DNA of 38,580 nt, taken from Candidatus Binatia bacterium. GTDB taxonomy: Bacteria; Desulfobacterota; Binatia; UBA9968. The notes below the pieces were generated by a model. The model was not told the DNA's origin and made no database searches. It saw nothing but the letters and a program-made list of their open reading frames with translations. The DNA is taken from positions 1 through 38,580 of the forward strand of contig JAICEJ010000003.1 of the NCBI GenBank assembly GCA_025924215.1. The letters run 5' to 3'. Numbering within the stretch: the first letter of the stretch is position 1; the number at the start of each line of letters is the position of its first letter. A program made the translations under genes and the position numbers. Positions 4,581 through 38,580 of the stretch are shown here, piece after piece.

Positions 4581-4596
4581 TGGCATCTTCGTTGCA
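4581..4596 (+). promoter_or_regulatory. candidate sigma-54 (-24/-12) promoter TGGCATCTTCGTTGCA
   Basis: Matches TGGCA-N6-TTGCW; 42 nt upstream of the PRC-barrel ATG (4638). Confidence 0.75.
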
Positions 4597-4637: not shown

Positions 4638-5399
4638 ATGCTGAGACCGATAGAGAGCCTCAAGAATTTTTCGATCGGCGCTAATGATGGCGAGATCGGA
4701 AGGGTAGTAGAATTTTTCTTCGATGACGACAAGTGGACGATCAGATATCTGGTTGCCGACACCGGAGGTTGGCTGAGCGGCAGAAAAGTGCTGATCTCGC
4801 CGATCTTCTTCGGCGCGGTGGATTGGGACGGCGAGGTTTTCAACGTCAACCTTACCCGACAACAAATCGAAAATAGCCCAAGCATCGACACCGATAAACC
4901 GGTGTCGCGCCAACAGGAGAGCAGCTTTTATGACTACTACAACTTTCCCTATTATTGGTTGAGTGCGGGGCTAACAACTCCAGCGGCGGTTGATCCTAGC
5001 GCAGCTACACCAGCCCCAAGCGGTCCGGAGGCCGCGGCGTTGGGCCAGCAATCGGATTTCGAGGACATTCATTTGCGTAGCACCAAGGACATACTCGGCT
5101 CTTATATTGAAACCACCGATGGCGACCTTGGCCATCTGGAGGATTTCATCATCGATGATCAAACCTGGGTAATCCGTTATCTGCTGATCGATACGACAAA
5201 TTGGTGGCCAGGTAAGACAGTGCTGATCTCGCCGGAATGGGTCAAGGACATGGTTGAGGCCGATTCGAGAGTCTACGTCGATCTGACCCAGGAACAGATA
5301 AAAACTAGTCCGCAGTACGATGAGACAACCGTTCTCGATCGTGACTACGAGTCGCGTCTCTACCAACATTACGGCCGCTCACGGTATTGGAGCGACTAA
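4638..5399 (+). CDS. tandem PRC-barrel domain protein
   Basis: Two PRC-barrel repeats: IGANDGEIGRVVEFFFDDDKWTIRYLVADTGGWLSGRKVLISP and IETTDGDLGHLEDFIIDDQTWVIRYLLIDTTNWWPGKTVLISPEWV. Confidence 0.92.
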   Translation: MLRPIESLKNFSIGANDGEIGRVVEFFFDDDKWTIRYLVADTGGWLSGRKVLISPIFFGAVDWDGEVFNVNLTRQQIENSPSIDTDKPVSRQQESSFYDYYNFPYYWLSAGLTTPAAVDPSAATPAPSGPEAAALGQQSDFEDIHLRSTKDILGSYIETTDGDLGHLEDFIIDDQTWVIRYLLIDTTNWWPGKTVLISPEWVKDMVEADSRVYVDLTQEQIKTSPQYDETTVLDRDYESRLYQHYGRSRYWSD

Positions 5400-10459: not shown

Positions 10460-10475
10460 TGGCATAGCGGTTGCA
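10460..10475 (+). promoter_or_regulatory. candidate sigma-54 promoter TGGCATAGCGGTTGCA
   Basis: Exact TGGCA-N6-TTGCA, 27 nt upstream of ATG 10502. Confidence 0.75.
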
Positions 10476-10501: not shown

Positions 10502-10666
10502 ATGAAAAATGATACACGTGTACCTGAACGCAAAGACATCGACAATACAGAGTTCCCATGTCGTTCGTGCGGTGAAAAATTTAATTCGTTGGTGGAAGCA
10601 GAACAGCATGAAAAGGATTGTCGCAACCGAGAAACTTCAGGAGCTAAACCTGCCGAGCGAGAGTGA
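10502..10666 (+). CDS. small zinc-finger-like protein (CxxC...HxxxC)
   Basis: MKNDTRVPERKDIDNTEFPCRSCGEKFNSLVEAEQHEKDCRNRETSGAKPAERE; purine-rich RBS-like GGGGGA upstream; the ORF track start at 10247 is probably too long. Confidence 0.65.
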   Translation: MKNDTRVPERKDIDNTEFPCRSCGEKFNSLVEAEQHEKDCRNRETSGAKPAERE

Positions 10667-15577: not shown

Positions 15578-15593
15578 AGCAAGCGATATGCCA
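15578..15593 (-). promoter_or_regulatory. candidate sigma-54 promoter TGGCATATCGCTTGCT
   Basis: Exact TGGCA-N6-TTGCT, about 67 nt upstream of ATG 15511. Confidence 0.75.
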
Positions 15594-15831: not shown

Positions 15832-16611
15832 TTATGGTGTCTGGGTTTTAGCGAGTGGTCTTTCTCGCTCGGCATAATAGGCGCGACCGCGTTCATAGCC
15901 GCGACGAAAGGTTTCGTCGTCACAAATATCCGGCTGCAACTCGCGCAGCTTCGGTACCGCAGCTTCATAGGCTTTACCGCGGCAATCAGGATGGAGAGCT
16001 GTTTCAAAGCCGGTGCGATAGCGGCTTTCGTTTCTGTGAAAGTCGCCGTCCGGCGCGTCATACTGCGCTTCTTCGGCGTCACGTATTCCGATCCACCACT
16101 TGTCACGGGCAGCATCAACGCTTTCAGCGCCGTTGCGCTCGATCACAGCTCTTCCCTTTTCAATCACATCGTCGTCCTGGGACCTGGCAATCAACACAGT
16201 TCGGCCCTGCCTCAAAGCATCTTCATAAAAGAACAGTTCATCTTTGGGCAATCCCGTTGAAAGCTGATTCTCAAGCGCGCCGCCGGTCACCGCGCCAGCC
16301 ACTGCCCCACCGATTCCAAACGCCCCGGCACCTAAACCAATCGCCAGTATGGTGCCGACACCCGGCAAGACAATGCTTGCGACGACACTTCCGGCGGCTA
16401 GTCCAACCGCGCCGCCAACAACGCCACCGATGGCGCTTCCCATACCGGGCTGCTCACCCTCATCTGTCGGCACCGCATCGAGGTCTTTTGCGGAGCTTCC
16501 CGGCGCCAGCAGTACGATATCTTCATTGCGGAAGCCCGCCTCAGTTTGCAGCTCCGAAAATGCCCGTTCGGCTTCTTTCCTCGAATTGAAAATTCCGGCG
16601 ATCGTTCCCAT
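15832..16611 (-). CDS. general-stress (YflT-like N-terminus) glycine-zipper protein
   Basis: MGTIAGIFNSRKEAERAFSELQTEAGFRNEDIVLL... then Gly-rich GSAIGGVVGGAVGLAAGSVV...AIGLGAGAFGIGGAVAGAVTGG. Confidence 0.75.
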   Translation of the reverse strand: MGTIAGIFNSRKEAERAFSELQTEAGFRNEDIVLLAPGSSAKDLDAVPTDEGEQPGMGSAIGGVVGGAVGLAAGSVVASIVLPGVGTILAIGLGAGAFGIGGAVAGAVTGGALENQLSTGLPKDELFFYEDALRQGRTVLIARSQDDDVIEKGRAVIERNGAESVDAARDKWWIGIRDAEEAQYDAPDGDFHRNESRYRTGFETALHPDCRGKAYEAAVPKLRELQPDICDDETFRRGYERGRAYYAERERPLAKTQTP

Positions 16612-16659: not shown

Positions 16660-16675
16660 CGCAATGCAAATGCCA
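16660..16675 (-). promoter_or_regulatory. candidate sigma-54 promoter TGGCATTTGCATTGCG
   Basis: TGGCA-N6-TTGC, about 49 nt upstream of the 16611 start. Confidence 0.7.
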
Positions 16676-17143: not shown

Positions 17144-17575
17144 ATGAACAACCGATTGGCCAAGGAACTCGGCGCGACTCTGCGGCGCAAGCGATCCTCT
17201 CTGCTGCTGCAAGAAATTGTCGGCAGCCAGAACGAAGTCGGGCCATCGTTAGAAGACCGTGAGAGCGAGCTCGAAGAGAGCGCGCAAAAGGATCGCATGA
17301 CTCGCTTGGAGAGTCGCCTGACCGAGCGCGGCCAGACCCTTCTACGCCAGATCGACGACGCTCTTGAACGAATCGATGTGGGAACTTTCGGCGAGTGTGA
17401 ACGATGCGGCAATGATATCGGTCATGGCCGGCTTAAGGCGATGCCAACAGCGGCGCTCTGTATCGATTGTGCAACCGCCCGGGAAAAGAGACAGCGTATG
17501 CTAGGAGCAAATGGCGACATCGAGCGACTGCCATTCAAGGACGATGAGCTTGAAGGTCGCCTAGGCTCCGAGTAA
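17144..17575 (+). CDS. DksA/TraR-type C4 zinc-finger protein
   Basis: IDDALERIDVGTFGECERCGNDIGHGRLKAMPTAALCIDCATAREK. Confidence 0.93.
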   Translation: MNNRLAKELGATLRRKRSSLLLQEIVGSQNEVGPSLEDRESELEESAQKDRMTRLESRLTERGQTLLRQIDDALERIDVGTFGECERCGNDIGHGRLKAMPTAALCIDCATAREKRQRMLGANGDIERLPFKDDELEGRLGSE

Positions 17576-17627: not shown

Positions 17628-19238
17628 CTAGTTGCGGCGAATGTCCGCAGCGGCTTCCGCTGTCACATTGGCTGGTAAGGTCAAGTGGAAGGTGGTGCCC
17701 TTGCCTACTGTGCTGGCATAAGAAACTACGCCATCGTGCGCAAGGATAATTTGCTGCACAATGAACAACCCCAGACCGGTACCGTGCGGCTTTGTCGAGC
17801 TGAACAGATCAAAGACCTTCAGATCATCGGGAATACCTATACCGGTGTCACTGATATCGATGCAGATCGAGCCGCCGCTCAAGTATCCCTTTACTGACAA
17901 AGTGCCGCCGTACGGCATCGCCTCTACGGCGTTTTTAAAAAGATTGAGTAACGCCTGTTTGAGTTTTGCCCCGTCGCCGCGGATTGGCGGCAGATCCGGC
18001 GAGCACTCCCACATAATCTGAACGTCCCCTTTGCCGTCCATATCCAATCCCGAGATCGTTTCTTGAACGACGCTGGCGAGCTTCACCGGCTGAAGACTAA
18101 GTTTTTGAGGTCGCGCAATCGTTTTGAACTCGTTCAGCAGAGAAGTAAGCCGGTCGATCTCGCTCTTCAAGTCCTTCAACGTCGCTAACATGTGCGGCGG
18201 AGCTTTGATGCCCTCTCGACTGATAAATCGCTCCAGCAGTTGGACCGTCGTGGAAATGCCGTTCAGCGGATTGCCAATCTCATGAGCCAGCATGGATGCC
18301 GCGGTTCCAATCGCCGCCAGATGTTCCTTTTCCCTTAACTTCTCTCGCAGATTTCGTTCCTGCGAGTCATCGCGCAACAAAATCAAAAATCCCTGCAAAC
18401 CGTCGGCATCGTCACGTAGCGCAAAGACGATGACCCTAGCATAAAACTGTGAGCCGTCTTTGCGCACCAACAGTTGGTAGTCGCGAAATGTTCCTTGATC
18501 ACTCGCCTCATCAAGCGCCTTTTTTATCAACGCCTGTCTGCCTTCCTGATCGGCGAAGAAAACCGACAACCGCTGGTCCGCCATATCATCACTCTCGCGG
18601 CCCAGGATGCGGGTTGCGGTGCGGTTCCAGTCAACGATGCGGCCATCGGCATCGGATATCAGAACCGCGTAATTTGTGATGTTGCGGAGCAAATTCCCGA
18701 GGATTTGCTCGACCTGCTTGCGTTGCGCCTCCTCGTGCTGAAGCTCCTCGGTTTTCGACATCAACTCGGATGTTTGTTCGATCACGCGCTGCGCCAAACG
18801 CTGATTTAATTCGAGAATAATCTTCTCCGCCTCGTTGCGTTCGGTAACTTCTCGAATCACTTTTACGACGTAGGCGCCCCTATCAGTTTGCAGAAGCGTG
18901 CATGTTGCTTCCGCGGCAAAAAGCGATCCGTCACGGCGGCGATACTGCCATTCACCGCGCCAGCAGCCGTTTTGCTCGATGTCGGGAATCGAGGTTTGAT
19001 AGATACGATCGAACCAATTCTTGTCGAGGTACAGCCGTTCGGTGGTCTGTTGCAAGACCTCCTGAGCCGAATAGCCAAACAACAAGGTTGCGCCCTCATT
19101 CCAGTAAACGATACAGCGCGACTTGAACTCGATAACGATGATCGCCTCAGGAATCCCTTTGTACAGTGACACCAGGACGTTCTCATCGAGAGGCGGCGGA
19201 CAGGTTTGGCTATGAATTGCTGGTTCGTTGGCAGACAT
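17628..19238 (-). CDS. PAS-PAS sensor histidine kinase, NtrB/AtoS-like
   Basis: Two PAS domains, H-box LAHEIGNPLNGISTTVQLLERF, N-box NLFKNAVEAM, G-boxes DTGIGIPDDL, GTGLGLFIVQQI; no TM segments or receiver. Confidence 0.93.
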   Translation of the reverse strand: MSANEPAIHSQTCPPPLDENVLVSLYKGIPEAIIVIEFKSRCIVYWNEGATLLFGYSAQEVLQQTTERLYLDKNWFDRIYQTSIPDIEQNGCWRGEWQYRRRDGSLFAAEATCTLLQTDRGAYVVKVIREVTERNEAEKIILELNQRLAQRVIEQTSELMSKTEELQHEEAQRKQVEQILGNLLRNITNYAVLISDADGRIVDWNRTATRILGRESDDMADQRLSVFFADQEGRQALIKKALDEASDQGTFRDYQLLVRKDGSQFYARVIVFALRDDADGLQGFLILLRDDSQERNLREKLREKEHLAAIGTAASMLAHEIGNPLNGISTTVQLLERFISREGIKAPPHMLATLKDLKSEIDRLTSLLNEFKTIARPQKLSLQPVKLASVVQETISGLDMDGKGDVQIMWECSPDLPPIRGDGAKLKQALLNLFKNAVEAMPYGGTLSVKGYLSGGSICIDISDTGIGIPDDLKVFDLFSSTKPHGTGLGLFIVQQIILAHDGVVSYASTVGKGTTFHLTLPANVTAEAAADIRRN

Positions 19239-19455
19239 CGTATCCTTATCTTTGCAGCCACACTTAAGTGACTGCGCGAATTCTATTGAGGTCCTACGAC
19301 CTGGGTCATCATTTAACTATATCTCTGATAAATCAAGATCCTGTCAATCTAGCTAGCTTGGCACAGCTCGATGGCCGCCTCACCGAAGACGCACCATAAA
19401 AGGTGAATTCCGACCTGGGACAAACCCTTTTGTAAAAACGAATCGCTACTTGTGC

Positions 19456-19471
19456 TGGCATGCTCGTTGCG
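19456..19471 (+). promoter_or_regulatory. candidate sigma-54 promoter TGGCATGCTCGTTGCG
   Basis: TGGCA-N6-TTGC, about 25 nt upstream of the ASRT-like ATG with RBS TTTAGGAG between. Confidence 0.7.
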
Positions 19472-19496
19472 TTTTTGCGCTGTTTAGGAGACACAC

Positions 19497-19868
19497 ATGA
19501 AGGCAATCGGAGCGAGGATTTGGGCAATCCCGGAGGGCTATATTCCCGGCTGGAGCAACGGTCCCGAACCTGAATTTACCAGCCATGAGACCGTCTGCTT
19601 GCTCAACACCGCGGATGAGAATGCTCACGTCCTCATTACTGTTTTCTTCTCTGATCGCGAACCTGCCGGCCCCTACGCGATTACAGTGGCGGCGCGCCGG
19701 ACAAAGCACGTGCGGTTTAACGATTTGAGGGATCCGGAAAAAATTCCACTTGCTACCGATTTTGCCAGCGTCATCGAATCGGACGTGCCGATCGTGGTGC
19801 AGCACACACGCCTCGACTCACGCCAAGCAGAAAACGCTTTACTCAGCACGATGGCTTACCGGGAATAG
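19497..19868 (+). CDS. Anabaena sensory rhodopsin transducer (ASRT) family protein
   Basis: ARIWAIPEGYIPGWSNGPEPEFTSHETVCLLNTADENAHVLITVFFSDREPAGPYAITVAARRTKHVRFNDL...TDFASVIESDVPIVVQHTRLDSRQAENALLSTMAY, which closely matches the ASRT sequence as I recall it. Confidence 0.93.
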   Translation: MKAIGARIWAIPEGYIPGWSNGPEPEFTSHETVCLLNTADENAHVLITVFFSDREPAGPYAITVAARRTKHVRFNDLRDPEKIPLATDFASVIESDVPIVVQHTRLDSRQAENALLSTMAYRE

Positions 19869-20224: not shown

Positions 20225-22051
20225 ATGAAATTCATACCCTGTTTGTTTTCTGCACTGGCGGTGTGGCTGATATTGGCGTGCCGCGCTTCAGCTATTCAAG
20301 TCGAAGAACTCGATCCAAGCCGCGAGTGGCGGGTGGAAAAAATCGAGATTTCGGGCAACCAACGTTTTCCTGATAACCAACTTCTCACGGAGATGGTAAT
20401 CCAGGCACGCCCCTGGTATCGATTCTGGGAAGAGCGGCCACTTTTCGATCCGCTCACGTTTGCCACCGACCTTGACCGCCTGCGGCGGTTTTATCAATCG
20501 GAGGGTTTTTACAAAAGCCGAATAACTCACAACATCGATCCCGATGAGACGCGAGGTCTCGTGAGTCTCGAGATTTACGTGGAAGAGAATAGTCCGGTCG
20601 TGATCTCGCAGGTGCTTATAGAAGTTAACGATGAGTCGCCAGACCGTCCGCCTTTGCCGGATAAATTTCCCATAAAACCCGGCGAGATTTTCCGGGAACA
20701 GAAGTATCAAGATGCGGAACTCTTGCTGCGTAATCATCTGATGGACAACGGCCATGCGCATGCCCAGACACAACGCCGCGCCGAAGTAGATCTGGAACAA
20801 GACCAAGCTGGCGTCCGGTACTGGGCGCAGCCGGGGCCCAAGGCTGTATTTGGTGAAACCGAGATCAAGGGAACCGAGCAGGTTGAGCCCTATTTAATAG
20901 TGAGAGAGCTGGCCTACGAGCCTGGCGAAATGTTCTCGTTAAAAAAGATCCGGGAATCCCGCCAGCAAATCCTGGCGTTGGATCTATTCAGCGCGCTTAG
21001 AATCAATCCCCGGGAGAGTGCCGGAACTCCAACGGTGGTTCCGATGGGAGTCCAGGTAACTGAAAAGCCACCGCGCCAGATCAGTGTCGGATTGGGTTAC
21101 AGCACAGAGGAGGAATTCCACGTTTCACTGGATTGGCGATATCAAAACTGGTTGGGCGATGGAAGACGATTATGGATTCGAGGCAAATACTCTTCGATCG
21201 TCGCCAGCGGCGACATCGATTTTACCCAGCCTCACTTCTTTACACGGCGCACCCAGGCCGGGCTACACTTGCGCCACGCTGTGGAAGAAGAAGAAACCTT
21301 CAAACGAACCCTAAGTCGATTCTCCGGCCGTCTTGAGCATCGCTTCACGCCAAGGCTTCTCAGCTTTTTCGGCTACCGCGTCGATAACAATCAACTTAGC
21401 GATGTTGCGGAGGCCACGACACAAGTCTTGGGAGAGATCAGAACGAAAGGTATTTTGACCGGTCCTTTTTTGGGGCTGGTCTGGAACAGCACTGATGATT
21501 TATTGCAGCCAACCCAAGGTGAGATCGTATCCTTCAACGCGGATCAAGCCGGCGGCATCTGGGGTGGCCCTTACGAATTCTTCAAGCTGACAGGCGAAGC
21601 GAAAAAGTACTTCCCGATTGGTTGGGACACCATCTTTGCCGGACGTCTAAAGTTGGGAGTCGCCGACGCTATCGGTTCAAAAGAGAACTATCCGTTGTTC
21701 GAGCGCTTCTTTGCCGGCGGCCAAGGCGGTGTCCGCGGCTATGGCAGGCGCCGCCTGGGCCCGCTCAACAGTGACGACGAACCGCTCGGCGGTCTCAGCT
21801 TGATTGAGGGTTCGGTGGAAGTGCGTCGTCCGGTTTGGCGGGAATTAGGGGGCGCCCTGTTTGTCGACTTCGGGCAGGTCTCGTTAAAATCATTCGATAT
21901 TCCCGTGAACGATCTCCAATTCTCAACAGGCTTCGGCCTGAGCTATACCACGCCTGTGGGTCCATTGCGGCTAGATATCGGTTTTCCGTTCAAACCGCCG
22001 CGCGGCGACCGTGCTTGGCAAGTTCACTTCAGTGTAGGGGCATCCTTCTAA
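20225..22051 (+). CDS. Omp85-superfamily outer-membrane protein with POTRA domains (TamA/BamA-like)
   Basis: Signal peptide, POTRA-like repeats, C-terminal GGQGGVRGYGRRRLGP...PVGPLRLDIGFPF...WQVHFSVGASF. Confidence 0.9.
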   Translation: MKFIPCLFSALAVWLILACRASAIQVEELDPSREWRVEKIEISGNQRFPDNQLLTEMVIQARPWYRFWEERPLFDPLTFATDLDRLRRFYQSEGFYKSRITHNIDPDETRGLVSLEIYVEENSPVVISQVLIEVNDESPDRPPLPDKFPIKPGEIFREQKYQDAELLLRNHLMDNGHAHAQTQRRAEVDLEQDQAGVRYWAQPGPKAVFGETEIKGTEQVEPYLIVRELAYEPGEMFSLKKIRESRQQILALDLFSALRINPRESAGTPTVVPMGVQVTEKPPRQISVGLGYSTEEEFHVSLDWRYQNWLGDGRRLWIRGKYSSIVASGDIDFTQPHFFTRRTQAGLHLRHAVEEEETFKRTLSRFSGRLEHRFTPRLLSFFGYRVDNNQLSDVAEATTQVLGEIRTKGILTGPFLGLVWNSTDDLLQPTQGEIVSFNADQAGGIWGGPYEFFKLTGEAKKYFPIGWDTIFAGRLKLGVADAIGSKENYPLFERFFAGGQGGVRGYGRRRLGPLNSDDEPLGGLSLIEGSVEVRRPVWRELGGALFVDFGQVSLKSFDIPVNDLQFSTGFGLSYTTPVGPLRLDIGFPFKPPRGDRAWQVHFSVGASF

Positions 22052-22052
22052 A

Positions 22053-25000
22053 ATGAACAGATTGTTGGCCATCTTGTATCGCGTAGCCGTGAGCCTTGGG
22101 TTTTTGCTGCTGGTCTTGATCATCGCGGCGGCAATCATCACTCACACCGACCGGTTTCGTGAATTTGTCCGCGATAAACTGGTGACGGCAATCAACGATA
22201 CGATCGTGGGCTCCATCAGTTTAGGTCGAATAGACGGTTCTATCTGGGGCAATGTCATTCTGCATGATGTCGTCGTACGTCACGAGGGCGCCGAAATTCT
22301 CGAGGTGCCCGACCTGACCATTTCCTACTCACTATTCCCACTGATATGGGGTCGCTTGCACGTTTTTCAACTCGCAGGCAGCCGTCCGACGCTTCGTTTG
22401 AGACGCCACGAAGATAATCAGCTGAACATCGTGCAAGCTTTTTCCCCAAAGCAGCCACAGAGCGAAGAAACCTCAAGGCTCGTTTTGTCCTTGAACTCGG
22501 TCAGTCTACGAGAAGGACACATCGAACTGAGACTTGAGGGTCCGAAACCGCAAAACTACACCCTAGAGGACGTAACTGTCGCCGGCCGGATTGATGCTCG
22601 CCCTAAAATGGTCACCATCGATCTTAGTCGCATGGCCGCGCGCCTGAATTCCCTAGGTCTGCCTGAGCTGAGTCTCGATGGCGCCTTGGCGTACCGTGAA
22701 ACTGACGGCACAGACACATTTGAAGTGGCAAATCTCCTAGTTACGACTGGAGACTCGCGGGTCAAACTCAATGGCAAAATCGCCGACCTGCAGGCCACCA
22801 ACTTGGACGTGAAAATCGCCGTTGAAACGCTTGCCCCGCCTGACATTCGCCGTGTGTTTGCCGACTGGCCGATTAGACAAGACGTCGTCGGGGCTCTCGC
22901 AGTCAATGGACCGCTCAATGCGCTGTCTTTTGATATCGATTTGGCGGCGGCGGGCGCTAAATTGGCAGCGAATCTTGAGCTCGAAGAGGCGGGCGAGACA
23001 CCACGTTATCGCGGAAACATTAACCTAAGCGGTTTTGATCTAGCGAGATTGCTTGGCAGGAACGATATCGGCGGGGTTGCGAGCGCGGCTCTTGAGGGCC
23101 GCGGCACGGGTTTCTCGCTGGCTAATCTCGATGTCAAAGGCGCTATTCGAATCCAAAGTGCGGCTGTTCAAGGATGGGCCCTGGGAGAAGTCTCCATCGA
23201 CGGTCGCGTCCATGATAGCGTTGCGCAGATCAATGGAAACTTAAAGGGCAAAATGGGTCTCGCTTCATGGCAGGGCGAAGTTTCTCTCAAGGAGAGACCT
23301 GCCTACGAACTTTCTCTTGGCGTGGAGAATCTCGACGTACAAAAAGCGGCTGGGAATGAGAAGCAAATTGCAGGTAAGATCAACCTAAAAGGCACTGTCA
23401 TAGGCGCCGGGCTCTCGCCGCGCGACATGATCGTCCGCGCGGAGCTAAAGATCTTGCCGTCCACGATTGGGCCGGTGGAGGTGCAAGAAGGTTCTGTGGT
23501 TGCCAATCTCGCACAACAGCGACTTCAGATTCTGGAAGCAACGGCCAGGACTCAGGATGCAATGCTCAAGGTGCAGGGCGATGTCGGTCTCGAGCCAAAG
23601 CAAAACGGCAAGCTTGATTATGTTGTTCGCTCAGCGAACCTAACGCCGTGGCTGGCTTTAGCGAATCAGCAAGGTTCCGGTTCTATGGAGCTGACCGGAC
23701 GCGCCAGCGGCAATATTGCCGACCTCCGGTCACAAGGCACAATGAAGCTGGCGGGATTACGGCTGCAGAATACGACAATCAAGAGCGGCAGCATCGATTT
23801 TGACCTCCGCCTCGCCGGCACGCAGTCCCTGCCGCAAGGAACCATGAAGGTTGAACTCGCTGAGATCCAAGCAGGCATCCCGCTGCAAAGACTCGACGGT
23901 TCCATCGGACTCTCCTCTAAAAAAAATTACGAAATAGGGATCGACTTGAAAGCCGTGGATCAGGCCAAGCGCACGCATATTCTCGCGGGGCAAGTAGACT
24001 ATCAGCCGCAACTGATGGTCGCTCGACTGGATAGAGTCGGCTTGAGCCTCGAAGATGGAGTTTGGCAGCTCTCCCGACCGGCAACGATCACCGTACGCGG
24101 CGATAACTTCGACATCGAGGGTTTGCTGCTAAGAAATCGCGTCCAACAGGTAGCGATCAACGGCCGATTCGCCACCAGCGGCAAACAGGATCTCGCTGTC
24201 ACGGTGGAAGGCTTGCCGATCAGCGCAGTCTCGGCTTTTTTACCCAAGCCGCTTCCCATGAGCGGGATTTTGAATATACGTGCTCAGGTCACCGGCACAG
24301 CGGCAGCGCCGCAAATCACCGCATCAGCGAATCTGACCGATGCTAGCATCGGCGGACAAAGCTACGGCGGTGTTATCGGTGCTATCGACTACAGATCTCC
24401 CAACGCGGATATCAAGTTGACGGTGCGCCAGGACGCCGATCATGTGTTAACCGCATACGGCACGATTCCACTCATTTTGAGATGGAGCCCTCAGTGGCAA
24501 GCGGAAACCACCGGCGATATGAACGTACGCGTTCAATCAAGCGCTTTGAGCATCGCTTTTTTAAACGCGTTCAGTGGAGATGCGGCCCAGGGCATCGCTG
24601 GTATCATCGCTTTGGATGTCACTGCCCGAGGCCCGATGACCAAGCCGATACTTCGCGGCACATTTCAGTTGCAAGATGGAGGTCTCGCGATTAAGCCGCT
24701 GGGGGTGCAGATCGCCGCCATCAATGCAGACGCAACGTTCGACGGACAGACTGTTTCGCTGCGCCAGATTTCGGCCCGCGCCAAAGATGGACGTTTAAAC
24801 GGCAGCGGTATCCTGTCTCTGAAAGATTATAGCCCGGAGGACTTCAAAGTTTCTATCGCCCTTTCGGGCTGGCCAGCGATCGAAACACAACGATATCGCG
24901 CAACGGTGGCGGGCAATATCGAAGCGCAGGGACCTTTGGGAAAACCTTCCTTGAAGGGCCAGGTCGAAGTGCTCAATGCCGAACTGCGCCCGGATTTAGC

Positions 25001-25850
25001 TTTTCTTGGTCGTGGTAAGAGACCGCTCACCCGCGATGAAACCATTATCATCGTCCGCGGTGAAGAACCCGCCCAGGCGCAGACCCAAGAGAACAAAACC
25101 GCGCGACCAGCCGAGAATGAACTCCTGAGAGACGCCAGAGTGGATTTGTCAGTGGTCGTGCCGAATCAGGCGTGGATCCGACACCCGGAAGCCAACGTGG
25201 AGCTAAGTGGAAAACTACGGGCCGTTAAAGAAGCCGGAAAAGAGATTAGTCTGACAGGAACAATCAGAGTCGTAAGGGGATGGATCGGTTTTCAAGGCAG
25301 GCGCTTTAATTTAACTCGTGGCTCGGTGGAGTTTAGAGGCGATGAAACACTCAATCCCGCGCTCGATATCGTAGCGCAGTACCGTTTACCGCAATACCAA
25401 GTTGAAGTCATTGTCACTGGCACTGCGGACAAACCCGTTCTGACGCTGCGAAGCCAGCCGGCATTGGAGCAAGCCGATATTTTGGCGCTCCTGCTCTTTG
25501 GCAAGCCGGTCAGTAGTTTGAATCGAAACGAACAGGACACACTGCAGCAAAGTGCCGCCGAGATGGCCGGCGGGCTTGCGGCGGCGAAAGTTGCAGGGGC
25601 GGTATCTGAGGCGCTGGGATTGGACAGATTAGGACTCGACCTCGGTGAGATCGATGCTGGCGGAGGTCAGATCGGCTTCGGCCGGTACATAGGCGAGCGT
25701 ACCTATGTTTCCATCTCTCAGAAACTGTCGGGAGAAACCGCACAGGAAGTTTCGATAGAATACCAGATCGGACCCGATTGGAAGATCACAAGTTCGACGT
25801 CCACTGCTGGATCAAGCGGTGTTGGTATTCTCTGGCACAAACGTTACTGA
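22053..25850 (+). CDS. tamB: TamB (DUF490) translocation/assembly module homologue
   Basis: N-terminal TM, long beta-rich AsmA-like body, C-terminal DUF490: SVEFRGDETLNPALDIVAQYRLPQYQVEVIVTGTADKPVLTLRSQPALEQADILALLLFGK; directly after the Omp85 gene. Confidence 0.92.
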   Translation: MNRLLAILYRVAVSLGFLLLVLIIAAAIITHTDRFREFVRDKLVTAINDTIVGSISLGRIDGSIWGNVILHDVVVRHEGAEILEVPDLTISYSLFPLIWGRLHVFQLAGSRPTLRLRRHEDNQLNIVQAFSPKQPQSEETSRLVLSLNSVSLREGHIELRLEGPKPQNYTLEDVTVAGRIDARPKMVTIDLSRMAARLNSLGLPELSLDGALAYRETDGTDTFEVANLLVTTGDSRVKLNGKIADLQATNLDVKIAVETLAPPDIRRVFADWPIRQDVVGALAVNGPLNALSFDIDLAAAGAKLAANLELEEAGETPRYRGNINLSGFDLARLLGRNDIGGVASAALEGRGTGFSLANLDVKGAIRIQSAAVQGWALGEVSIDGRVHDSVAQINGNLKGKMGLASWQGEVSLKERPAYELSLGVENLDVQKAAGNEKQIAGKINLKGTVIGAGLSPRDMIVRAELKILPSTIGPVEVQEGSVVANLAQQRLQILEATARTQDAMLKVQGDVGLEPKQNGKLDYVVRSANLTPWLALANQQGSGSMELTGRASGNIADLRSQGTMKLAGLRLQNTTIKSGSIDFDLRLAGTQSLPQGTMKVELAEIQAGIPLQRLDGSIGLSSKKNYEIGIDLKAVDQAKRTHILAGQVDYQPQLMVARLDRVGLSLEDGVWQLSRPATITVRGDNFDIEGLLLRNRVQQVAINGRFATSGKQDLAVTVEGLPISAVSAFLPKPLPMSGILNIRAQVTGTAAAPQITASANLTDASIGGQSYGGVIGAIDYRSPNADIKLTVRQDADHVLTAYGTIPLILRWSPQWQAETTGDMNVRVQSSALSIAFLNAFSGDAAQGIAGIIALDVTARGPMTKPILRGTFQLQDGGLAIKPLGVQIAAINADATFDGQTVSLRQISARAKDGRLNGSGILSLKDYSPEDFKVSIALSGWPAIETQRYRATVAGNIEAQGPLGKPSLKGQVEVLNAELRPDLAFLGRGKRPLTRDETIIIVRGEEPAQAQTQENKTARPAENELLRDARVDLSVVVPNQAWIRHPEANVELSGKLRAVKEAGKEISLTGTIRVVRGWIGFQGRRFNLTRGSVEFRGDETLNPALDIVAQYRLPQYQVEVIVTGTADKPVLTLRSQPALEQADILALLLFGKPVSSLNRNEQDTLQQSAAEMAGGLAAAKVAGAVSEALGLDRLGLDLGEIDAGGGQIGFGRYIGERTYVSISQKLSGETAQEVSIEYQIGPDWKITSSTSTAGSSGVGILWHKRY

Positions 25851-27530: not shown

Positions 27531-27842
27531 CTAAGATTTGCCTAACTGAAGGTTATTGACCACCTTCTTAACACCGTCAACCCGACCCGCTAATTGCTCG
27601 GCCCGCGCTTTCTGTTCGGCGCTTTGTACCGTGCCGTTTAAGTAAACCACGCCGTTTGTGGTATCGACATCGATACGAGTAAAATTCGACGCCTTGTCGG
27701 ACGTCAATGTGGCCTGTACCGCAGTCGAGATGCGCGCGTCGTCAACATTTTGCCCAGCCGTTCGCCCGGTCATCGCTTGACACCCGGAGAGTGCGACAGC
27801 TAGGAGCGCTACTGCGGCAAAATGTCTACTCGGTTTCTTCAT
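27531..27842 (-). CDS. BON-domain lipoprotein
   Basis: MKKPSRHFAAVALLAVALSGCQAM lipobox; DDARISTAVQATLTSDKASNFTRIDVDTTNGVVYLNGTVQSAEQKARAEQLAGRVDGVKKVVNNLQL; RBS ACAGGAGGAATCACA. Confidence 0.9.
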   Translation of the reverse strand: MKKPSRHFAAVALLAVALSGCQAMTGRTAGQNVDDARISTAVQATLTSDKASNFTRIDVDTTNGVVYLNGTVQSAEQKARAEQLAGRVDGVKKVVNNLQLGKS

Positions 27843-28244
27843 TGTGATTCCTCCTGTTTTTTGTTCATTCTTCTGGTGATTAGCAAAACACTCGACCAGC
27901 CGGCGCAACTCGTCCAAGTGAAACGGCTTGCCTAGCACTCGGTCACATCCGGCAGCGATCCAGAGATTTTTCTCCCGAATTGAGCCCATCGCCGCCATGG
28001 CTATCACCGGGATATCGGTGAAGCGCGAACCGCTCTTGAACTCGCTAAGCAACGAAGAAGCTCCACTGCCTGAAATCGTTACGTCGAGCAATATCAAATG
28101 GGGCCTTTGCCGCTCGAGCTGTAGCCAAAAATCCTCCTGGCTGTTTGCTGCCGACGCGCGCCAACCGCATAGCTCCAAGTACTTCACGATAAGTTCGAGA
28201 AGATCCTGATTTTCCTCGACGACGAGGATGCGAAAAGATTTCAC
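27843..28244 (-). CDS. receiver domain, in frame with and without a stop before the BON lipoprotein
   Basis: MKSFRILVVEENQDLLELIVKYLEL...HLILLDVTISGSG...VLGKPFHLDELRRLVECF; single 237-aa ORF 27531..28244. Confidence 0.8.
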
Positions 28245-29362: not shown

Positions 29363-30058
29363 CTAACGCAATTTTTCTAACTGCGCGATACGATCTTCCG
29401 TGGCTGGGTGGGTAGATAGAAAGCCGCCGCCACCTCCACCTCCCGAACTTCGAGAAACCCAATTTAGCGCATTGATCAAAACATCTTTGGAGTATCCGGC
29501 GCGCCGCAAGATTTCGACACCATGTCTATCCGCAGCATACTCTTCGTTCCGGCTATAGCCACGGGCGATGAGACTGCCGGCGATCGGCGTCACCGCGCTG
29601 CTGCCCGGTATGAGCTGCTCAAGAAGTATCACTCCCAAATTCAAGCCGACGCCAAGACCCTGAGCTTTGGCGACATGGCCTAAGTCATCATGAGCGATTT
29701 CGTGGGCCATAATGCCACGCAACTGTTCGTCGTTGGCTTTTTCTAATAGACCGGTGGTCACGTAGAACTCCCCACCGCCGGCGTTCGCTGCATTGATGTC
29801 GGCTTCATCGATAATGCCGATCCTCACATCTTTTGGCGATTTCGGACGATCCATATTCTTTAGCAGCGGTGTCATGATGCGGTAAAACCGCTCCGCTTGC
29901 CGAGAATCTATTTGGCGTGTATTCGCCGGCTGACGCCGATCATCGTTCCTACTGTCGCCCCGCGGCGCTGCGCCATCCGCGACAACGCAACCTGAGATCA
30001 AGGTCGCGACAATCGCTATTGGGACGAGATAGAATTGTTTTATCGATTTCACGATCAA
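29363..30058 (-). CDS. M48 family zinc metalloprotease (lipoprotein-like N-terminus)
   Basis: IVATLISGCVVADG lipobox; zinc motif IMAHEIAHDDLGHV; YSRNEEYAADRHGVEILRRAGY; STHPATEDRIAQLEKL. Confidence 0.94.
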   Translation of the reverse strand: MIVKSIKQFYLVPIAIVATLISGCVVADGAAPRGDSRNDDRRQPANTRQIDSRQAERFYRIMTPLLKNMDRPKSPKDVRIGIIDEADINAANAGGGEFYVTTGLLEKANDEQLRGIMAHEIAHDDLGHVAKAQGLGVGLNLGVILLEQLIPGSSAVTPIAGSLIARGYSRNEEYAADRHGVEILRRAGYSKDVLINALNWVSRSSGGGGGGGFLSTHPATEDRIAQLEKLR

Positions 30059-30334: not shown

Positions 30335-30350
30335 AGCAATGGATGTGCCA
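30335..30350 (-). promoter_or_regulatory. candidate sigma-54 promoter TGGCACATCCATTGCT
   Basis: Full match to TGGCAC-N5-TTGCW, about 44 nt upstream of ATG 30291. Confidence 0.8.
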
Positions 30351-30694: not shown

Positions 30695-31252
30695 TTACGG
30701 TCTTCTCGTGCCGGCTCCGGAACCGCCCCACGTAAAACCAACGCCGATATTGAATATATGGTTGCCATTGTCCGATTCATTATTGATGCGCTCGAACTTA
30801 TCCCAAAACCATTCGTACCGGTAACCAAGATTTACGAAAGTCTGTTCATGAACGAATAGTTTGACACCGACCTGGGGGCCCAGAGTTCCGGTGATGTCGT
30901 CATCGTTCCACGCTGCACCAATGAAAGCGCCGAGATAGGGAACGATGATGTCGGTCACTCGAAAATGATAATTAATGAAAGGCGCGGTCGTGGCGATCCA
31001 TTGATCACTGGCATCGTCTACGAAGAGGTAATTGAGCGCCTGTCGAAAGCCTAATTGCCATCCTGGACTGAGATAATACCCATAGCTCAAATCCAAGTTT
31101 AAATTGCCGAAGTCAGTATCTTCGGCATGAAAAAATCCGCCCGATACTTGAAGCTCACTAGCGCCCTGTCGGGGTGCGGCAGCGACAGGCGCAACTCCAG
31201 CGAGCGAACTGATCAAAGCCCAACTCACTAGAGACAGGAAAACTTTTTTCAT
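30695..31252 (-). CDS. outer-membrane beta-barrel protein
   Basis: Signal peptide MKKVFLSLVSWALISSLAGVAPVAAA; alternating aromatic strands, ...NHIFNIGVGFTWGGSG. Confidence 0.82.
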   Translation of the reverse strand: MKKVFLSLVSWALISSLAGVAPVAAAPRQGASELQVSGGFFHAEDTDFGNLNLDLSYGYYLSPGWQLGFRQALNYLFVDDASDQWIATTAPFINYHFRVTDIIVPYLGAFIGAAWNDDDITGTLGPQVGVKLFVHEQTFVNLGYRYEWFWDKFERINNESDNGNHIFNIGVGFTWGGSGAGTRRP

Positions 31253-31289: not shown

Positions 31290-31305
31290 AGCAATGAAGA
31301 TGCCA
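31290..31305 (-). promoter_or_regulatory. candidate sigma-54 promoter TGGCATCTTCATTGCT
   Basis: Exact TGGCA-N6-TTGCT, 38 nt upstream of ATG 31252. Confidence 0.78.
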
Positions 31306-33420: not shown

Positions 33421-36400
33421 TTACAAACGTCTGTCTTGAGCTAAGTTAACCGCAATCAGCCTGTCGACTTCTTTGATATCGAAAGGCTTCATCAGATAAT
33501 CGTCAAAGCCAACTTGGCGCGCGCGTAGACGCTCTTCGTAACCATGGCCGGACAAGGCCACAAATACAGTTCCCGCGAGTGACTGGTTCGCTTTGAGCCG
33601 GCGGAACACCTCATACCCGCTGATGTCCGGCAGGCTGATATCCAACAGCACAAGATCCGGCGCAAACTCTCGTGCAACGCGAATCGCTGCATGTCCCGTC
33701 GAAGCGCTGCGGACCGTATGACCCTCCAGTTCAAGCAAACGGCTGGTCGCATTCAGTGCCACCGGACGATCATCGACCACCAAAATGCGCCAGTGCTTTG
33801 GCGTTGAGGAAGCCGTCAAAGAATCGTCAGCAGCCGCAGTATCCGGGCCCGGTTGAGGCTCAATTAAGCTCAACGAAGCTTGATCAGGGACCGGCTTGGC
33901 GGTGTAGCGCGCGATCATAGATAGCAGTGTTTCGAATTCGATAGGCTTCGGGAGGTAGTCATCGCAACCGGCCTTTAAGCATTTCTCTCGGTCACTGGGC
34001 ATAGCCGCTGCAGTTACGGCAATCACTGGTTTGCGAAATCCCAACTGCCGGATTCGGCGAGCAACCTCATAACCATCGAGCCGCGGCATTTGAATGTCCA
34101 AAAGAACCACATCCAAGTCATCCCCGGCTTGCTGAACCACCTCAAGCGCCGCCTCGCCGCTATCGGTCAAGGTCACTCGACCCCCGGCATCTTCGATAAA
34201 ACAGCCCATGAGGCGGCGGATCTCCGGTTGGTCTTCGCAGATCAAGACCCGCGCAGCCATCTTCTCGGCGAACAATCGCGCCACGCCGCCGTTCTTCTGG
34301 ATCATCGAAGAAGCGTAGGAGGCATTGGAGAGCACTTGGACTGGAATCGTCACCCGGAAGGTGCTGCCGCGACCACATAAACTCTCGACCGCAATAGCAC
34401 CGCCGAGAGCGCCAACCAAACGCCTCGTAATTGCCAATCCGAGGCCCGTGCCGCCATAAACTTTCGTTACCGAACTATCGCCTTGTGTAAACGGACGAAA
34501 TAAGTTTTGCTGCTGTTCTTCGGTCATACCGATACCCGAGTCGCTAACTTCAAACTGCAGCTGCGACTCCGCTCGTAGAAACCGCACGGCAAACTCGACC
34601 TTGCCGTGATCGGTAAACTTGATCGCGTTGCTCAATAAGTTGATCAGAATCTGGCGCAATCTTTTCGAATCGCTCTCGATTTTTTGCGGAATAAACCCGT
34701 CGTATTTTAAAAACAGCGGCAATGCCTTTTCTTTCGCATTCACTTCCATGAGCGCGTAAACTTCGCTTAAAAAAGCCGGCAAATAAATCGTTTCTCGATC
34801 AAGCTCGACACCCTGTGCCTCAATTTTGGCCAGGTCTAGAATGTCATTGATGATCTGCAACAGATACTGGCCGCTTTGCTTGATCGTGCGCACGCAATCG
34901 AGATCGTTGGGATCCTTCAGGCGGTTCAATAAGATTTCAGCGTATCCCAAGACTCCGGTGAGGGGACTGCGAATCTCATGACTCATGTTGGCGAGGAATT
35001 CACTCTTGGCGTAGCTCGCCGTATCGGCCGCCTCTTTGGCATCTATCAACGCCTGCTCCACCTGCTTGCGGCCCGTGGCGTCACGCACCAGACCGGTGAA
35101 GAATCGGCGCGGGCCGATCATGGTCTCGCTAACCCCTAAATCCACCGGGAACTCGCTGCCGTCCTTGCGCCGGCCCCGCACCTCGCGGCCAACGTCGATC
35201 ACCTTGCGTTCTCCGGTCCGGCGATAGTGATTCAAGTAGTCGTTGTGTTCGGACCGGTAGGGTTCGGCCATGAGCATTGAGAGATTGCGCCCGATCAGTT
35301 CGCGCGTTGAATAACCGAACATCTTCTCGACGGCTGGATTGACGGAGGCAATGATGCCATTCTCATCAATGGTGATGATTCCATCTACCGCAGTCTCAAC
35401 GATGGCTTTTAAATGAGCGGCCGCCTCAGCCACCGCCTGCTCCGCTTCCTCAAGAATTGTGATGTCTCGATTGACCTCGAGAATGACTTCGCCATCGGGC
35501 CGTGCGATCCGCTGCTGCCGGCTGAGAACTGCCACCTGGCCGCCGCGTTTGTTGACATGGCTGATCCGCCCTTCCCATTCGCCTTCACGGCGAATTTGAT
35601 CTTCGATCTCCTGCAGGGACACCGACTGGCTAGTTTTTAGTAGATCCTGCATCGACCGACCAGTGGCCTCCTCGGCGGAATAGCCGTAGAGCTTTTCAGC
35701 GCCTTCATTCCAGTACTCGATACCGTGAGCCACGCTCCAGACGCTGATCGCATCCAATGACAGATCCAAAAGCCGCGATTGCTGCTCGCGCTGTTGCTCG
35801 ATTCTCTTGCGCTCGGTAATATCTCGCGCAGTCACAGACACGCCGATGACTTCTTGATCGACCTTGATCGGTGAGATGGTTAAAGACACGTCAACCCGGC
35901 TGCCGTCCTTACGCCGGCGTACCGTCTCCAGCTGATCGATAGCTTCGCCACGTCTCAATGTTTCCGTTATTTGCGCCGATTCATCCGAATAATCTGGCGG
36001 CACATAAATCTCGGCAGTCTGACCTAACGCTTCCTCTGCCGCCCAGCCGAAAAGTTTCTCTGCCGCCCGATTCCACGTGACGATCTTGGAATCTCGTGAG
36101 AACGAGATGACGGCGTCCTGGGATGATGTGACGATGGCGGCGAGATGAGCGAGGCTCTGTTCCCATGATTTGCGGTCATGGATATCCAAGCTAGTGCCGA
36201 ACCAGTCGGTAATCAGGCCGCCCGCATCCTTGACCGGAAGAGCTTTCGCGATAAACCAGCGATATTCGCCATCGTGACGCCGGCAACGCAACTCCATCTC
36301 GTAACCATCCCCTCGAGCGACAGCCTGATCCCATTTTGAGAGCGCCTGCTCCCGATCTCCCGGATGTAGCGCGTCCAACCAACCAACACCGAGCGCCTGC

Positions 36401-38580
36401 TCCGGCTTAAAACCGGTATACTCGTACCAGCGGTCGTTGAGCGAATAGCACCAGCCGTCCGCACGGCAAGCCCAGACGAACACCGGCACATAGTTGGACA
36501 GCATGCGCAGCCGTTCTTCACTGTCCCGCAGCGCGCGCTCCGCCTTCTTCTCTTTGGTGATGTCCTGGGCCTCGATCACGGTGCCGACGGGCATGCCGTC
36601 TTGAATTATCGAGCTGGCGGCGCAACGCACAGAGAAAAAGGTGCCGTCCTTGCGCACGAACATCTCTTCGTGACCTGTAATTCTTTCGTCAAACGGCAGC
36701 ACACTATGAAGTCGACAATCGCCGATCGGGTAAGGCGAGCCGTCGGGCCGGCTGTGATGAATCTTTTCATGCAGAATCTGGCCGATCAGCTCTTGCTCAT
36801 CATACCCGGTCAAATGCCTTGCCGCCGGATTGGCGAAGGTAACGCGTCCCATCGGATCGGTCATAAACAACATCGATGGTGCATTATCTGTAATTGTTTC
36901 TAGCAGTTGCTTTTGGTGGCGCAGCTCTTCTTCGGCTCGCTTGGTTTCAGTAATGTCGATGTTGACGCCAAGAACGCGAGTTAGCTCGCCGGCGGCGTCG
37001 TACCAACCCTGGCCCTTGGAAGATACCCAGTGAATCTTTCCGGAAGGATGCAAAATGCGATATTCCAAAGTGAACGGCTGCCGCTGCCGAATGGCCTCAG
37101 CACGCTCAGCCTCCACTCGCTCAAGGTCCTCCGGATGAACCAGCTTTTGCCAGTGCTCGTAACGGGTCATGCCGCGGGCGGGCACTCCATAGACCATCTC
37201 TTGCTCGGGTGTCCATGCTAAATCGTTGGTTCGCGCGTTCCAGTCGAAGATTCCAAGATGAGCGCTGACCTGCGCCAAACGAAGCCGCTCAGCAGTCTCG
37301 TGAAAGGCATCCTCAGCGCGTTTCCGGTCGGTGAAGTCAAACACGATGCCAAGAAACCGAACCGCCGCACCCGCATCATCGTAGAGAAACCGGCCGAATG
37401 GCGCCAGCCAGCGAATCTCGCCATTGTCGGCGCGTATGATTCGGTGTTCCAGACAATAGAGGGATCGGGACGACTTTGCCCGCTCCATCGCTTGCGCGAC
37501 ACCGGCGAAATCCTCAGGGTAAATACGCGAGCGCCACATCTGGCGGGTGACGGGTTCGGCATCCGAATCGTATCCCAAGAGCGAGTACAGCTCCCGATTC
37601 CAGACTAAAGTGTCGGTTCGCAAATCCACATCCCAGATTCCCATGCCGGCGCCGTCCACCGCCAGCCGGAGCCTGCTTTCACTTTGCTCCAGCCGCTCCA
37701 CCTGGTGCCGTGACTCCGCCAGGAGGCGCAGACGCTCTTGCGCCATCGCCACGTAATGGCAAATCGTCCGCATGAAGTCGATTTCGTCATTGTCAAAACC
37801 GTCGCGTCTCTTACTCGCGAAACATAGTGTGCCGATCAAACGCTCGGCAAGCAGCAGAGGATGACCGGCATAGGCCGAAAAGCCCCGCGCCTGGGCAGAC
37901 TTTGCCTGTTGATCATCGACCTTCTTGAGTGCTTCCCGGATAACCTCCTGGCGTAAATGCGCAGGAACCTCATGGAGCGATTTGCTGATATCGAGTGGCT
38001 GTGAGGCGGGCAACGCATCAGGGTCTGCATCGCCGCGGGACTCCAGCACGAGGGCGGAACCGGAGCTGTCCACCCGGTAATTGAAGTAGGTATCCAATGC
38101 GAGGTGCTGTCGCACCGTCTCGAAAACTTCTCTGATCATCACAGTGGGATCATGCGCGGTAAGCAGTCGCTCCGAGACTTGCGCAAGCAACGCCAGTCGT
38201 TCGTTCTGCCGGCGCGCTCGCTCTTCAGCGCGCTTGCCCTCGCTGATGTCGACGACGACAGAGATTGTCCGCTCCGGCACGCCCGTGGCATCGCGGATCA
38301 ATTTGACGTTGATCGAGACCCAGAGAATTCGCCCGTCTTTGCGCACCAGACGTTTTTCTCCGACCAGGTCCTCGGTTTCGCCTCGCAATAATGCGGCTAT
38401 TAACTCGGCTTCACGGCGGCGATCGTCTGGGTGAGTCAGGTCGGATGGCGACAAGCCCAACAGCTCTGACTCGGTATAACCAACCAGCTCACAGAAACAT
38501 TTATTGACGCGAATGAATTTTCCCGTTGAGGCATCGATTTGCGTCTTGCCGACGCCGGCCAGCTCGAAGCTGGCGCGAAA
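33421..38580 (-). CDS. giant multi-PAS/GAF hybrid histidine kinase with two C-terminal receivers, 5' end truncated by window edge
   Basis: Frame stays open to 38580 (FRASFELAGVGKTQIDASTGKFIRVNKCFCELVGYTESEL upstream of the listed TTG start); about 8 PAS domains, one GAF, HisKA LANMSHEIRSPLTGVLGYAEIL, HATPase DSGIGMTEEQ/GTGLGLAITRRL, REC x2 (VLLDIQMPRLDGYE; VLLDISLPDISGYE). Confidence 0.95.
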   Translation of the reverse strand, partial: FRASFELAGVGKTQIDASTGKFIRVNKCFCELVGYTESELLGLSPSDLTHPDDRRREAELIAALLRGETEDLVGEKRLVRKDGRILWVSINVKLIRDATGVPERTISVVVDISEGKRAEERARRQNERLALLAQVSERLLTAHDPTVMIREVFETVRQHLALDTYFNYRVDSSGSALVLESRGDADPDALPASQPLDISKSLHEVPAHLRQEVIREALKKVDDQQAKSAQARGFSAYAGHPLLLAERLIGTLCFASKRRDGFDNDEIDFMRTICHYVAMAQERLRLLAESRHQVERLEQSESRLRLAVDGAGMGIWDVDLRTDTLVWNRELYSLLGYDSDAEPVTRQMWRSRIYPEDFAGVAQAMERAKSSRSLYCLEHRIIRADNGEIRWLAPFGRFLYDDAGAAVRFLGIVFDFTDRKRAEDAFHETAERLRLAQVSAHLGIFDWNARTNDLAWTPEQEMVYGVPARGMTRYEHWQKLVHPEDLERVEAERAEAIRQRQPFTLEYRILHPSGKIHWVSSKGQGWYDAAGELTRVLGVNIDITETKRAEEELRHQKQLLETITDNAPSMLFMTDPMGRVTFANPAARHLTGYDEQELIGQILHEKIHHSRPDGSPYPIGDCRLHSVLPFDERITGHEEMFVRKDGTFFSVRCAASSIIQDGMPVGTVIEAQDITKEKKAERALRDSEERLRMLSNYVPVFVWACRADGWCYSLNDRWYEYTGFKPEQALGVGWLDALHPGDREQALSKWDQAVARGDGYEMELRCRRHDGEYRWFIAKALPVKDAGGLITDWFGTSLDIHDRKSWEQSLAHLAAIVTSSQDAVISFSRDSKIVTWNRAAEKLFGWAAEEALGQTAEIYVPPDYSDESAQITETLRRGEAIDQLETVRRRKDGSRVDVSLTISPIKVDQEVIGVSVTARDITERKRIEQQREQQSRLLDLSLDAISVWSVAHGIEYWNEGAEKLYGYSAEEATGRSMQDLLKTSQSVSLQEIEDQIRREGEWEGRISHVNKRGGQVAVLSRQQRIARPDGEVILEVNRDITILEEAEQAVAEAAAHLKAIVETAVDGIITIDENGIIASVNPAVEKMFGYSTRELIGRNLSMLMAEPYRSEHNDYLNHYRRTGERKVIDVGREVRGRRKDGSEFPVDLGVSETMIGPRRFFTGLVRDATGRKQVEQALIDAKEAADTASYAKSEFLANMSHEIRSPLTGVLGYAEILLNRLKDPNDLDCVRTIKQSGQYLLQIINDILDLAKIEAQGVELDRETIYLPAFLSEVYALMEVNAKEKALPLFLKYDGFIPQKIESDSKRLRQILINLLSNAIKFTDHGKVEFAVRFLRAESQLQFEVSDSGIGMTEEQQQNLFRPFTQGDSSVTKVYGGTGLGLAITRRLVGALGGAIAVESLCGRGSTFRVTIPVQVLSNASYASSMIQKNGGVARLFAEKMAARVLICEDQPEIRRLMGCFIEDAGGRVTLTDSGEAALEVVQQAGDDLDVVLLDIQMPRLDGYEVARRIRQLGFRKPVIAVTAAAMPSDREKCLKAGCDDYLPKPIEFETLLSMIARYTAKPVPDQASLSLIEPQPGPDTAAADDSLTASSTPKHWRILVVDDRPVALNATSRLLELEGHTVRSASTGHAAIRVAREFAPDLVLLDISLPDISGYEVFRRLKANQSLAGTVFVALSGHGYEERLRARQVGFDDYLMKPFDIKEVDRLIAVNLAQDRRL

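Follow-up and report, generated by a model that had tools for sequence, protein, structure and literature searches.

Most accounts describe the Anabaena sensory rhodopsin transducer (ASRT) as the protein that passes on the light signal of Anabaena sensory rhodopsin (ASR). In a 2011 study of xenorhodopsins, the pairing of ASR with ASRT was considered specific to PCC 7120 (PMC3198991), and the Anabaena asr–asrt operon is listed among FurA/FurB-responsive genes (PMC12282138). Residues R109, Q110 and N113 have been reported to contact DNA; ASRT altered a reporter in E. coli, the reported affinity for DNA was weak (∼10 μM), and looping was better with a random sequence than with the promoter (PMC8660804). 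De Souza, Iyer and Aravind (2009) described further relatives, the solo ASRAH-domain proteins, among them Thermotoga TM1070. They treated TM1070 and ASRT as binding domains and predicted sugar binding, the H and C of TM1070 touch a diol, and links of ASRT to amylase, pyruvate oxidase, dehydratase/racemase and FAD oxidoreductase were reported in the same year (PMC2739507).

The gene considered here occupies positions 19497–19868 (+ strand) of the window, by which we mean the whole 38,580-nucleotide stretch that was analysed. It is an additional member of this known family, in which orphan ASRTs with predicted sugar binding have been known since 2009 (PMC2739507); the preliminary description had noted that ASRT-like proteins occur outside rhodopsin operons. 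The assignment draws on the open reading frame (123 aa, ATG start), Pfam, a PDB match and a residue alignment, and the start codon is preceded by a Shine–Dalgarno sequence, AGGAGA (19486–19491, +). A reverse-strand reading frame overlapping ASRT (19446–19805) was rejected as a shadow ORF. There is one ASRT copy in the draft genome, which comprises 745 contigs and is 98% complete. Inheritance of ASRT as a phylum core gene was ruled out, as only 3 of 395 sampled genomes gave a match at E ≤ 0.001, two of them above the cut-off; with the gene this rare in the phylum, transfer is likely. In a member of the same family (G028/L084, identical as a match with L013), the ASRT is a different one and lies inside a TPP-enzyme/racemase operon.

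Conserved residues and gene neighbours of ASRT

The PF07100 profile scores the window protein at 190.6 bits over profile positions 1–118 of 119 (curated cut-off, 25 bits), and the match to Anabaena ASRT (PDB 2ii7, Nostoc sp. PCC 7120) reaches 197 bits (E = 8e-58), which bears out the close kinship to the Anabaena family that was first noticed. The two proteins belong to the same subfamily and correspond over their full length, with identical SHETVC and LDSRQAENA segments and the same pocket and DNA-contact residues; unlike Anabaena ASRT, the window protein has no rhodopsin partner and its gene has a sigma-54 promoter. The fold predicted from the homologue 2ii7 is a small beta-sandwich, which is tetrameric in solved relatives. 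With the solo ASRAH proteins the window ASRT shares the fold family, the orphan state, the predicted sugar binding and the SHEshChhN pocket signature, here SHETVCLLN (residues 29–37), together with the conserved strand-1 Trp (W9) and the Asn after strand 2 (N37). TM1070 (PDB 1nc7) is nevertheless distant (67 bits): it retains the H and C, whereas its three DNA-contact positions read G, K and Y in place of the R109, Q110 and N113 of the window protein.

The residues H30, C34, R109, Q110 and N113 are jointly present in 81 of 82 main-clade ASRTs, the exception having Y at position 30, and the full set is absent from nine divergent second copies. Identity across phyla is 65–80%, with ∼54 positions conserved at ≥95%; the highly conserved polar positions include H30, E31, C34, R68, H71, R73, Q102, R105 and D107. 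The published numbering of the DNA contacts fits R-Q-x-x-N letter for letter if the Anabaena initiator methionine is left uncounted (PMC8660804). Conservation of R109, Q110 and N113 is compatible with DNA binding, although it may instead reflect packing of the tetramer. The earlier proposal of possible ligand or DNA binding stands as a possibility, its support being this residue conservation and the literature (PMC2739507, PMC8660804).

Gene neighbourhoods were compared in the best 80 of 236 ASRT loci, which come from many phyla and are not a random sample; ASRT was located by tblastn, its neighbours were clustered, and representatives were named with Pfam/NCBIfam. A sugar or redox gene lies near ASRT in 55 of the 80 loci and within 250 bp in 41, as raw counts without a background rate, and a rhodopsin accompanies ASRT in four. 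The neighbours include GH13 genes (some trehalose-synthase-like), TIGR03885 flavin oxidoreductases, pyruvate-oxidase-like TPP enzymes, glucose-dehydrogenase-like SDRs, racemase/dehydratases, FAD-linked oxidases, and GH15 trehalase-like and lactone-oxidase-like genes. Seven loci (L047, L051, L058, L064, L068, L073 and L080) have two ASRT copies beside a lactone-oxidase-type flavoenzyme gene, sometimes flanking it; the second copies are 35–41% identical and lack the full DNA-contact motif.

Neighbourhoods of this kind could mean that ASRT binds a metabolite and acts allosterically on the adjacent enzymes (pyruvate oxidase type, GH13, sugar oxidases) through protein contacts, DNA binding having no physiological part (De Souza et al. 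2009). Consistent with this, GH13 is found within 250 bp of ASRT in 18 loci, a TPP enzyme in 13 and a lactone-oxidase-type flavoenzyme in four, and ASRT is a solo domain with a conserved pocket. Taken alone, however, a role as enzyme partner leaves unexplained why the main clade never varies at R109, Q110 and N113 when the second copies and TM1070 differ at some or all of these positions, and no such enzyme adjoins the window ASRT; we consider it rather unlikely, if still a serious candidate. The window gene lies outside any sugar operon, being flanked by a kinase gene and by Omp85 and TamB genes, with the GH13 alpha-amylase-family gene (1094–2704, +; Pfam, neighbour comparison) 18 kb away. 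Among the fetched neighbours, this GH13 gene best matches the GH13 genes that immediately precede ASRT in Salinimicrobium and Gillisia (E ∼1e-200). A type IB topoisomerase gene lies directly 5′ of it (the two spanning 7–2704).

ASRT might also be a small enzyme in its own right, with a sugar lactone or similar product of oxidation as its substrate, for example. This would account for the very high conservation (65–80% identity, with many of the ∼54 most conserved positions polar) and for the linkage to glucose-dehydrogenase-like, lactone-oxidase and racemase/dehydratase families, but no catalytic activity of ASRT was found in the literature surveyed, where TM1070 and ASRT are described as binding domains, and the idea seems to us improbable.

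Rhodopsin and its relics

The window genes that were scanned with Pfam include no rhodopsin, as the preliminary description had noted for the window. It had also proposed a search of the whole genome for rhodopsin and retinal genes, with a co-regulated rhodopsin elsewhere as the finding that would speak against its reading. When this was done, the type-1 rhodopsin profile PF01036 had no match in any of the 745 contigs, nor in two congeners and one family member, all of them ASRT carriers; the same search gave matches in 7 of 54 ASRT-bearing genomes. The Blh-type retinal-forming oxygenase (PF15461) was likewise without a match in the draft genome, the control search finding it in 2 of 10 genomes, both rhodopsin-bearing, and heliorhodopsin (PF18761) gave no match in the draft genome in a search run without a positive control. 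The conserved gene order around ASRT in the genus contains no rhodopsin either. The case for absence from the genome is strong, though not final at 98% completeness in 745 contigs. With no type-1 rhodopsin gene adjacent or elsewhere in this draft assembly, the window gene falls outside the rhodopsin-coupled (ASR–ASRT) class, and its orphan state matches that of most ASRT-carrying bacteria.

A phylogeny of rhodopsin-linked and orphan ASRTs, also proposed at the outset, was built from 92 rows and 121 alignment columns, its deep forks being weak. All rhodopsin-linked ASRTs fall in one 12-row cyanobacterial clade (100/95) nested among orphans, and the window ASRT groups with its congeners (100/88), outside that clade. 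Besides that of PCC 7120, four or more cyanobacterial loci show ASR–ASRT-type pairing, and 7 of the 12 members of the rhodopsin-linked clade come from genomes without a PF01036 match. From the close similarity to Anabaena ASRT and a 745-contig draft at 98% completeness, one might imagine a photosensory transducer that lacks its rhodopsin only through incomplete assembly, but this is highly improbable, given that two congeners and a family member carry ASRT without a rhodopsin, that the genus synteny has none, that the genome itself has no Blh, and that the rhodopsin link is limited to one cyanobacterial clade.

Three of these seven rhodopsin-less members have a deleted rhodopsin relic just 5′ of an intact ASRT. 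In L033, rhodopsin residues 1–23 are fused in frame to residues 218–248; in L043, residues 1–24 and 232–260 remain, in different frames; and in L055 only residues 229–260 are left. The L043 and L055 relics were recovered again as L134 and L133. Because the junctions differ, separate deletions are suggested, the alternative being decay of a single, shared early deletion. The L033 relic forms a 74-aa ORF (L033:5774–5998), consisting of the N-terminal 23 residues of rhodopsin and its C-terminal tail, that may still be translated. Values of dN/dS among rhodopsin-less cyanobacterial ASRTs are 0.03–0.08, and that between the window gene and its congener L003 is 0.06. In the order to which L055 belongs, 14 of 245 sampled genomes have ASRT, three with an adjacent rhodopsin and two with a relic. 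As these sequences read, the rhodopsin link is derived, and rhodopsin has been repeatedly lost in cyanobacteria while ASRT was kept.

The sigma-54 promoter and its setting

A match to the sigma-54 (−24/−12) promoter motif, TGGCATGCTCGTTGCG, lies 41 bp before the ASRT ATG (19456–19471, +). It fits the consensus spacing, with the conserved GG and GC elements, and an rpoN (sigma-54) gene is present in the genome; on these two grounds we place ASRT in a putative sigma-54 regulon. Between the same two genes, near 19360, another sequence resembling a sigma-54 site, TGGCACAGCTCGATGGC, was rejected because its spacing is wrong.

The promoter is kept in both congeners, which are MAGs labelled Deltaproteobacteria. 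In L002 (L082), whose ASRT is 93% identical, it stands directly before ASRT as TGGCATGCTCGTTGCT. In L003 (L083; ASRT 84% identical) there is no site immediately 5′ of ASRT; instead, TGGCATGCGAGTTGCA precedes degP, a Do-family protease gene that, unlike in the window, lies between the promoter and ASRT, ending ∼42 bp before the latter. Either degP entered behind the promoter in one line, then, or the other line has lost it by deletion. The −24/−12 core and an upstream TGGGACAAA are retained in the alignment of the two promoter regions, much of the remainder having diverged, and sigma-54 control of ASRT has probably persisted. The sigma-54-type promoter of the preliminary description is thus upheld in form by the site itself, its conservation in two congeners and the presence of rpoN. 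Such a promoter was ruled out as a trait common to orphan ASRTs, being absent from most of the best 80 of 236 loci. Two Nitrospira genomes carry a similar site, AGGCACCTCGCTTGCA, but they are so closely related that they add no information. With the site mostly absent outside the genus, sigma-54 control is best seen as a lineage trait.

Promoters of the same type, which the preliminary description does not mention, recur before several further window genes, ∼40–85 bp 5′ of each. On the + strand, sites at 4581–4596 and 10460–10475 precede a PRC-barrel gene (4638–5399) and a 54-aa zinc-finger-like ORF (10502–10666). On the − strand, sites precede an exported repeat protein starting at ∼15511 (site at 15578–15593), a general-stress-like gene at 15832–16611 (16660–16675, with the last base off consensus), a lipoprotein-like gene and an M48 peptidase gene at 29363–30058 (30335–30350), and an outer-membrane beta-barrel gene at 30695–31252 (31290–31305).

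Genome-wide, the strict consensus TGGCAYN5TTGCW occurs at 40 sites, compared with 11 for the reversed pattern. Five of the 40 lie in this 38.6-kb contig, where 0.29 would be expected (Poisson P ∼1e-5, calculated by hand). With its final G, the ASRT site is not part of the strict set. Elsewhere in the genome, sites precede PII-like, hemerythrin-like and lipoprotein-like genes, as named by eye. PII genes are classical sigma-54 targets, and the site before a PII-like gene therefore supports the motif. No shared activator-binding motif was found upstream of 33 sigma-54 sites. We also observed that the sigma-54 regulon of this MAG is rich in small proteins and lipoprotein-like genes (e.g. L105–L128).

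Upstream of ASRT and divergent from it is a PAS-PAS-HisKA-HATPase histidine kinase gene (17628–19238, −; Pfam), whose product is closest to AtoS/NtrB-type kinases, at scores below the curated cut-offs. Kinases of this type usually serve sigma-54 activators, which makes this one a natural candidate for the controller of the ASRT promoter. A DksA/TraR-type zinc-finger gene (17144–17575, +; Pfam, neighbour comparison) is syntenic with ASRT across the genus. On the other side, an Omp85/POTRA outer-membrane protein gene of TamA/BamA type (20225–22051, +; Pfam) starts 356 bp after ASRT and is followed by a syntenic TamB-type gene (22053–25850, +; Pfam, synteny). The kinase, DksA-type, TamA-type and TamB-type genes keep this arrangement in L002 and L003. 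The wider surroundings had been called a stress-gene neighbourhood, a fair description in view of the PRC-barrel, DksA/TraR-type, general-stress-like, BON, M48 and AI-2E family genes. Relatives of the general-stress-like gene at 15832–16611, which is 3 kb from ASRT in the window, occur near ASRT in L005 and L009, both rhodopsin-linked cyanobacteria. The window also encodes a fusion of a response-regulator receiver to a C-terminal BON domain (27531–28244, −), which looks uncommon, and a 1679-aa hybrid histidine kinase with GAF, ∼6 PAS and two receiver domains (33421–38460, −).

Proposed role of ASRT

The explanation we favour, with about an even chance of being right, is that ASRT is a rhodopsin-independent, metabolite-gated, predicted DNA-binding regulator under sigma-54 stress/envelope control. 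A stress signal, possibly passing through the divergent AtoS/NtrB-like kinase and a sigma-54 activator, would raise ASRT as part of a sigma-54-controlled stress/envelope regulon. The H30/C34 cleft of ASRT would hold a sugar-like metabolite, and ligand occupancy would alter DNA binding or bending by the tetramer, with low sequence specificity, and so tune how carbohydrate and stress genes are expressed. In cyanobacteria, a rhodopsin would have been coupled onto a pre-existing ASRT and since lost more than once. Several points count against this regulator: the weak published DNA affinity and the better looping of a random sequence (PMC8660804), the possibility that R109, Q110 and N113 serve tetramer packing, the rarity of ASRT in the phylum and of the sigma-54 site outside the genus, and the failure to find an upstream activator motif. 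Nor is a sugar gene adjacent to the window ASRT, which differs from the solo ASRAH genes of sugar operons in lying within a sigma-54 stress island. The non-photosensory role suggested by the preliminary description is supported by the genome without type-1 rhodopsin or Blh, by the genus-conserved sigma-54 promoter, and by the confinement of rhodopsin linkage to one lossy cyanobacterial clade.

For the family as a whole we suggest, more tentatively and with the balance somewhat against it, that ASRT is a widespread one-domain regulator in which a metabolite pocket (H30/C34) is coupled to a DNA-bending face (R109/Q110/N113), that control by rhodopsin in cyanobacteria was a late and repeatedly discarded add-on, and that the window lineage wired the module to sigma-54 envelope/starvation stress. 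We found no mention of the rhodopsin relics, the sigma-54 wiring or the co-conservation of pocket and DNA face in the literature accessible to us, which mostly excluded subscription papers, among them the primary DNA-binding studies, and priority for these three points is not established.

The relics 5′ of intact ASRTs, together with the pocket and DNA-contact residues shared by rhodopsin-less bacteria, indicate an older, light-independent function. The real job of ASRT is thus probably to sense a sugar-like metabolite and act on DNA, rather than to relay light. Such a role makes the ligand, the DNA and the target genes of orphan ASRTs testable questions, and the window adds a lineage in which ASRT stands under a recognisable sigma-54 stress promoter.
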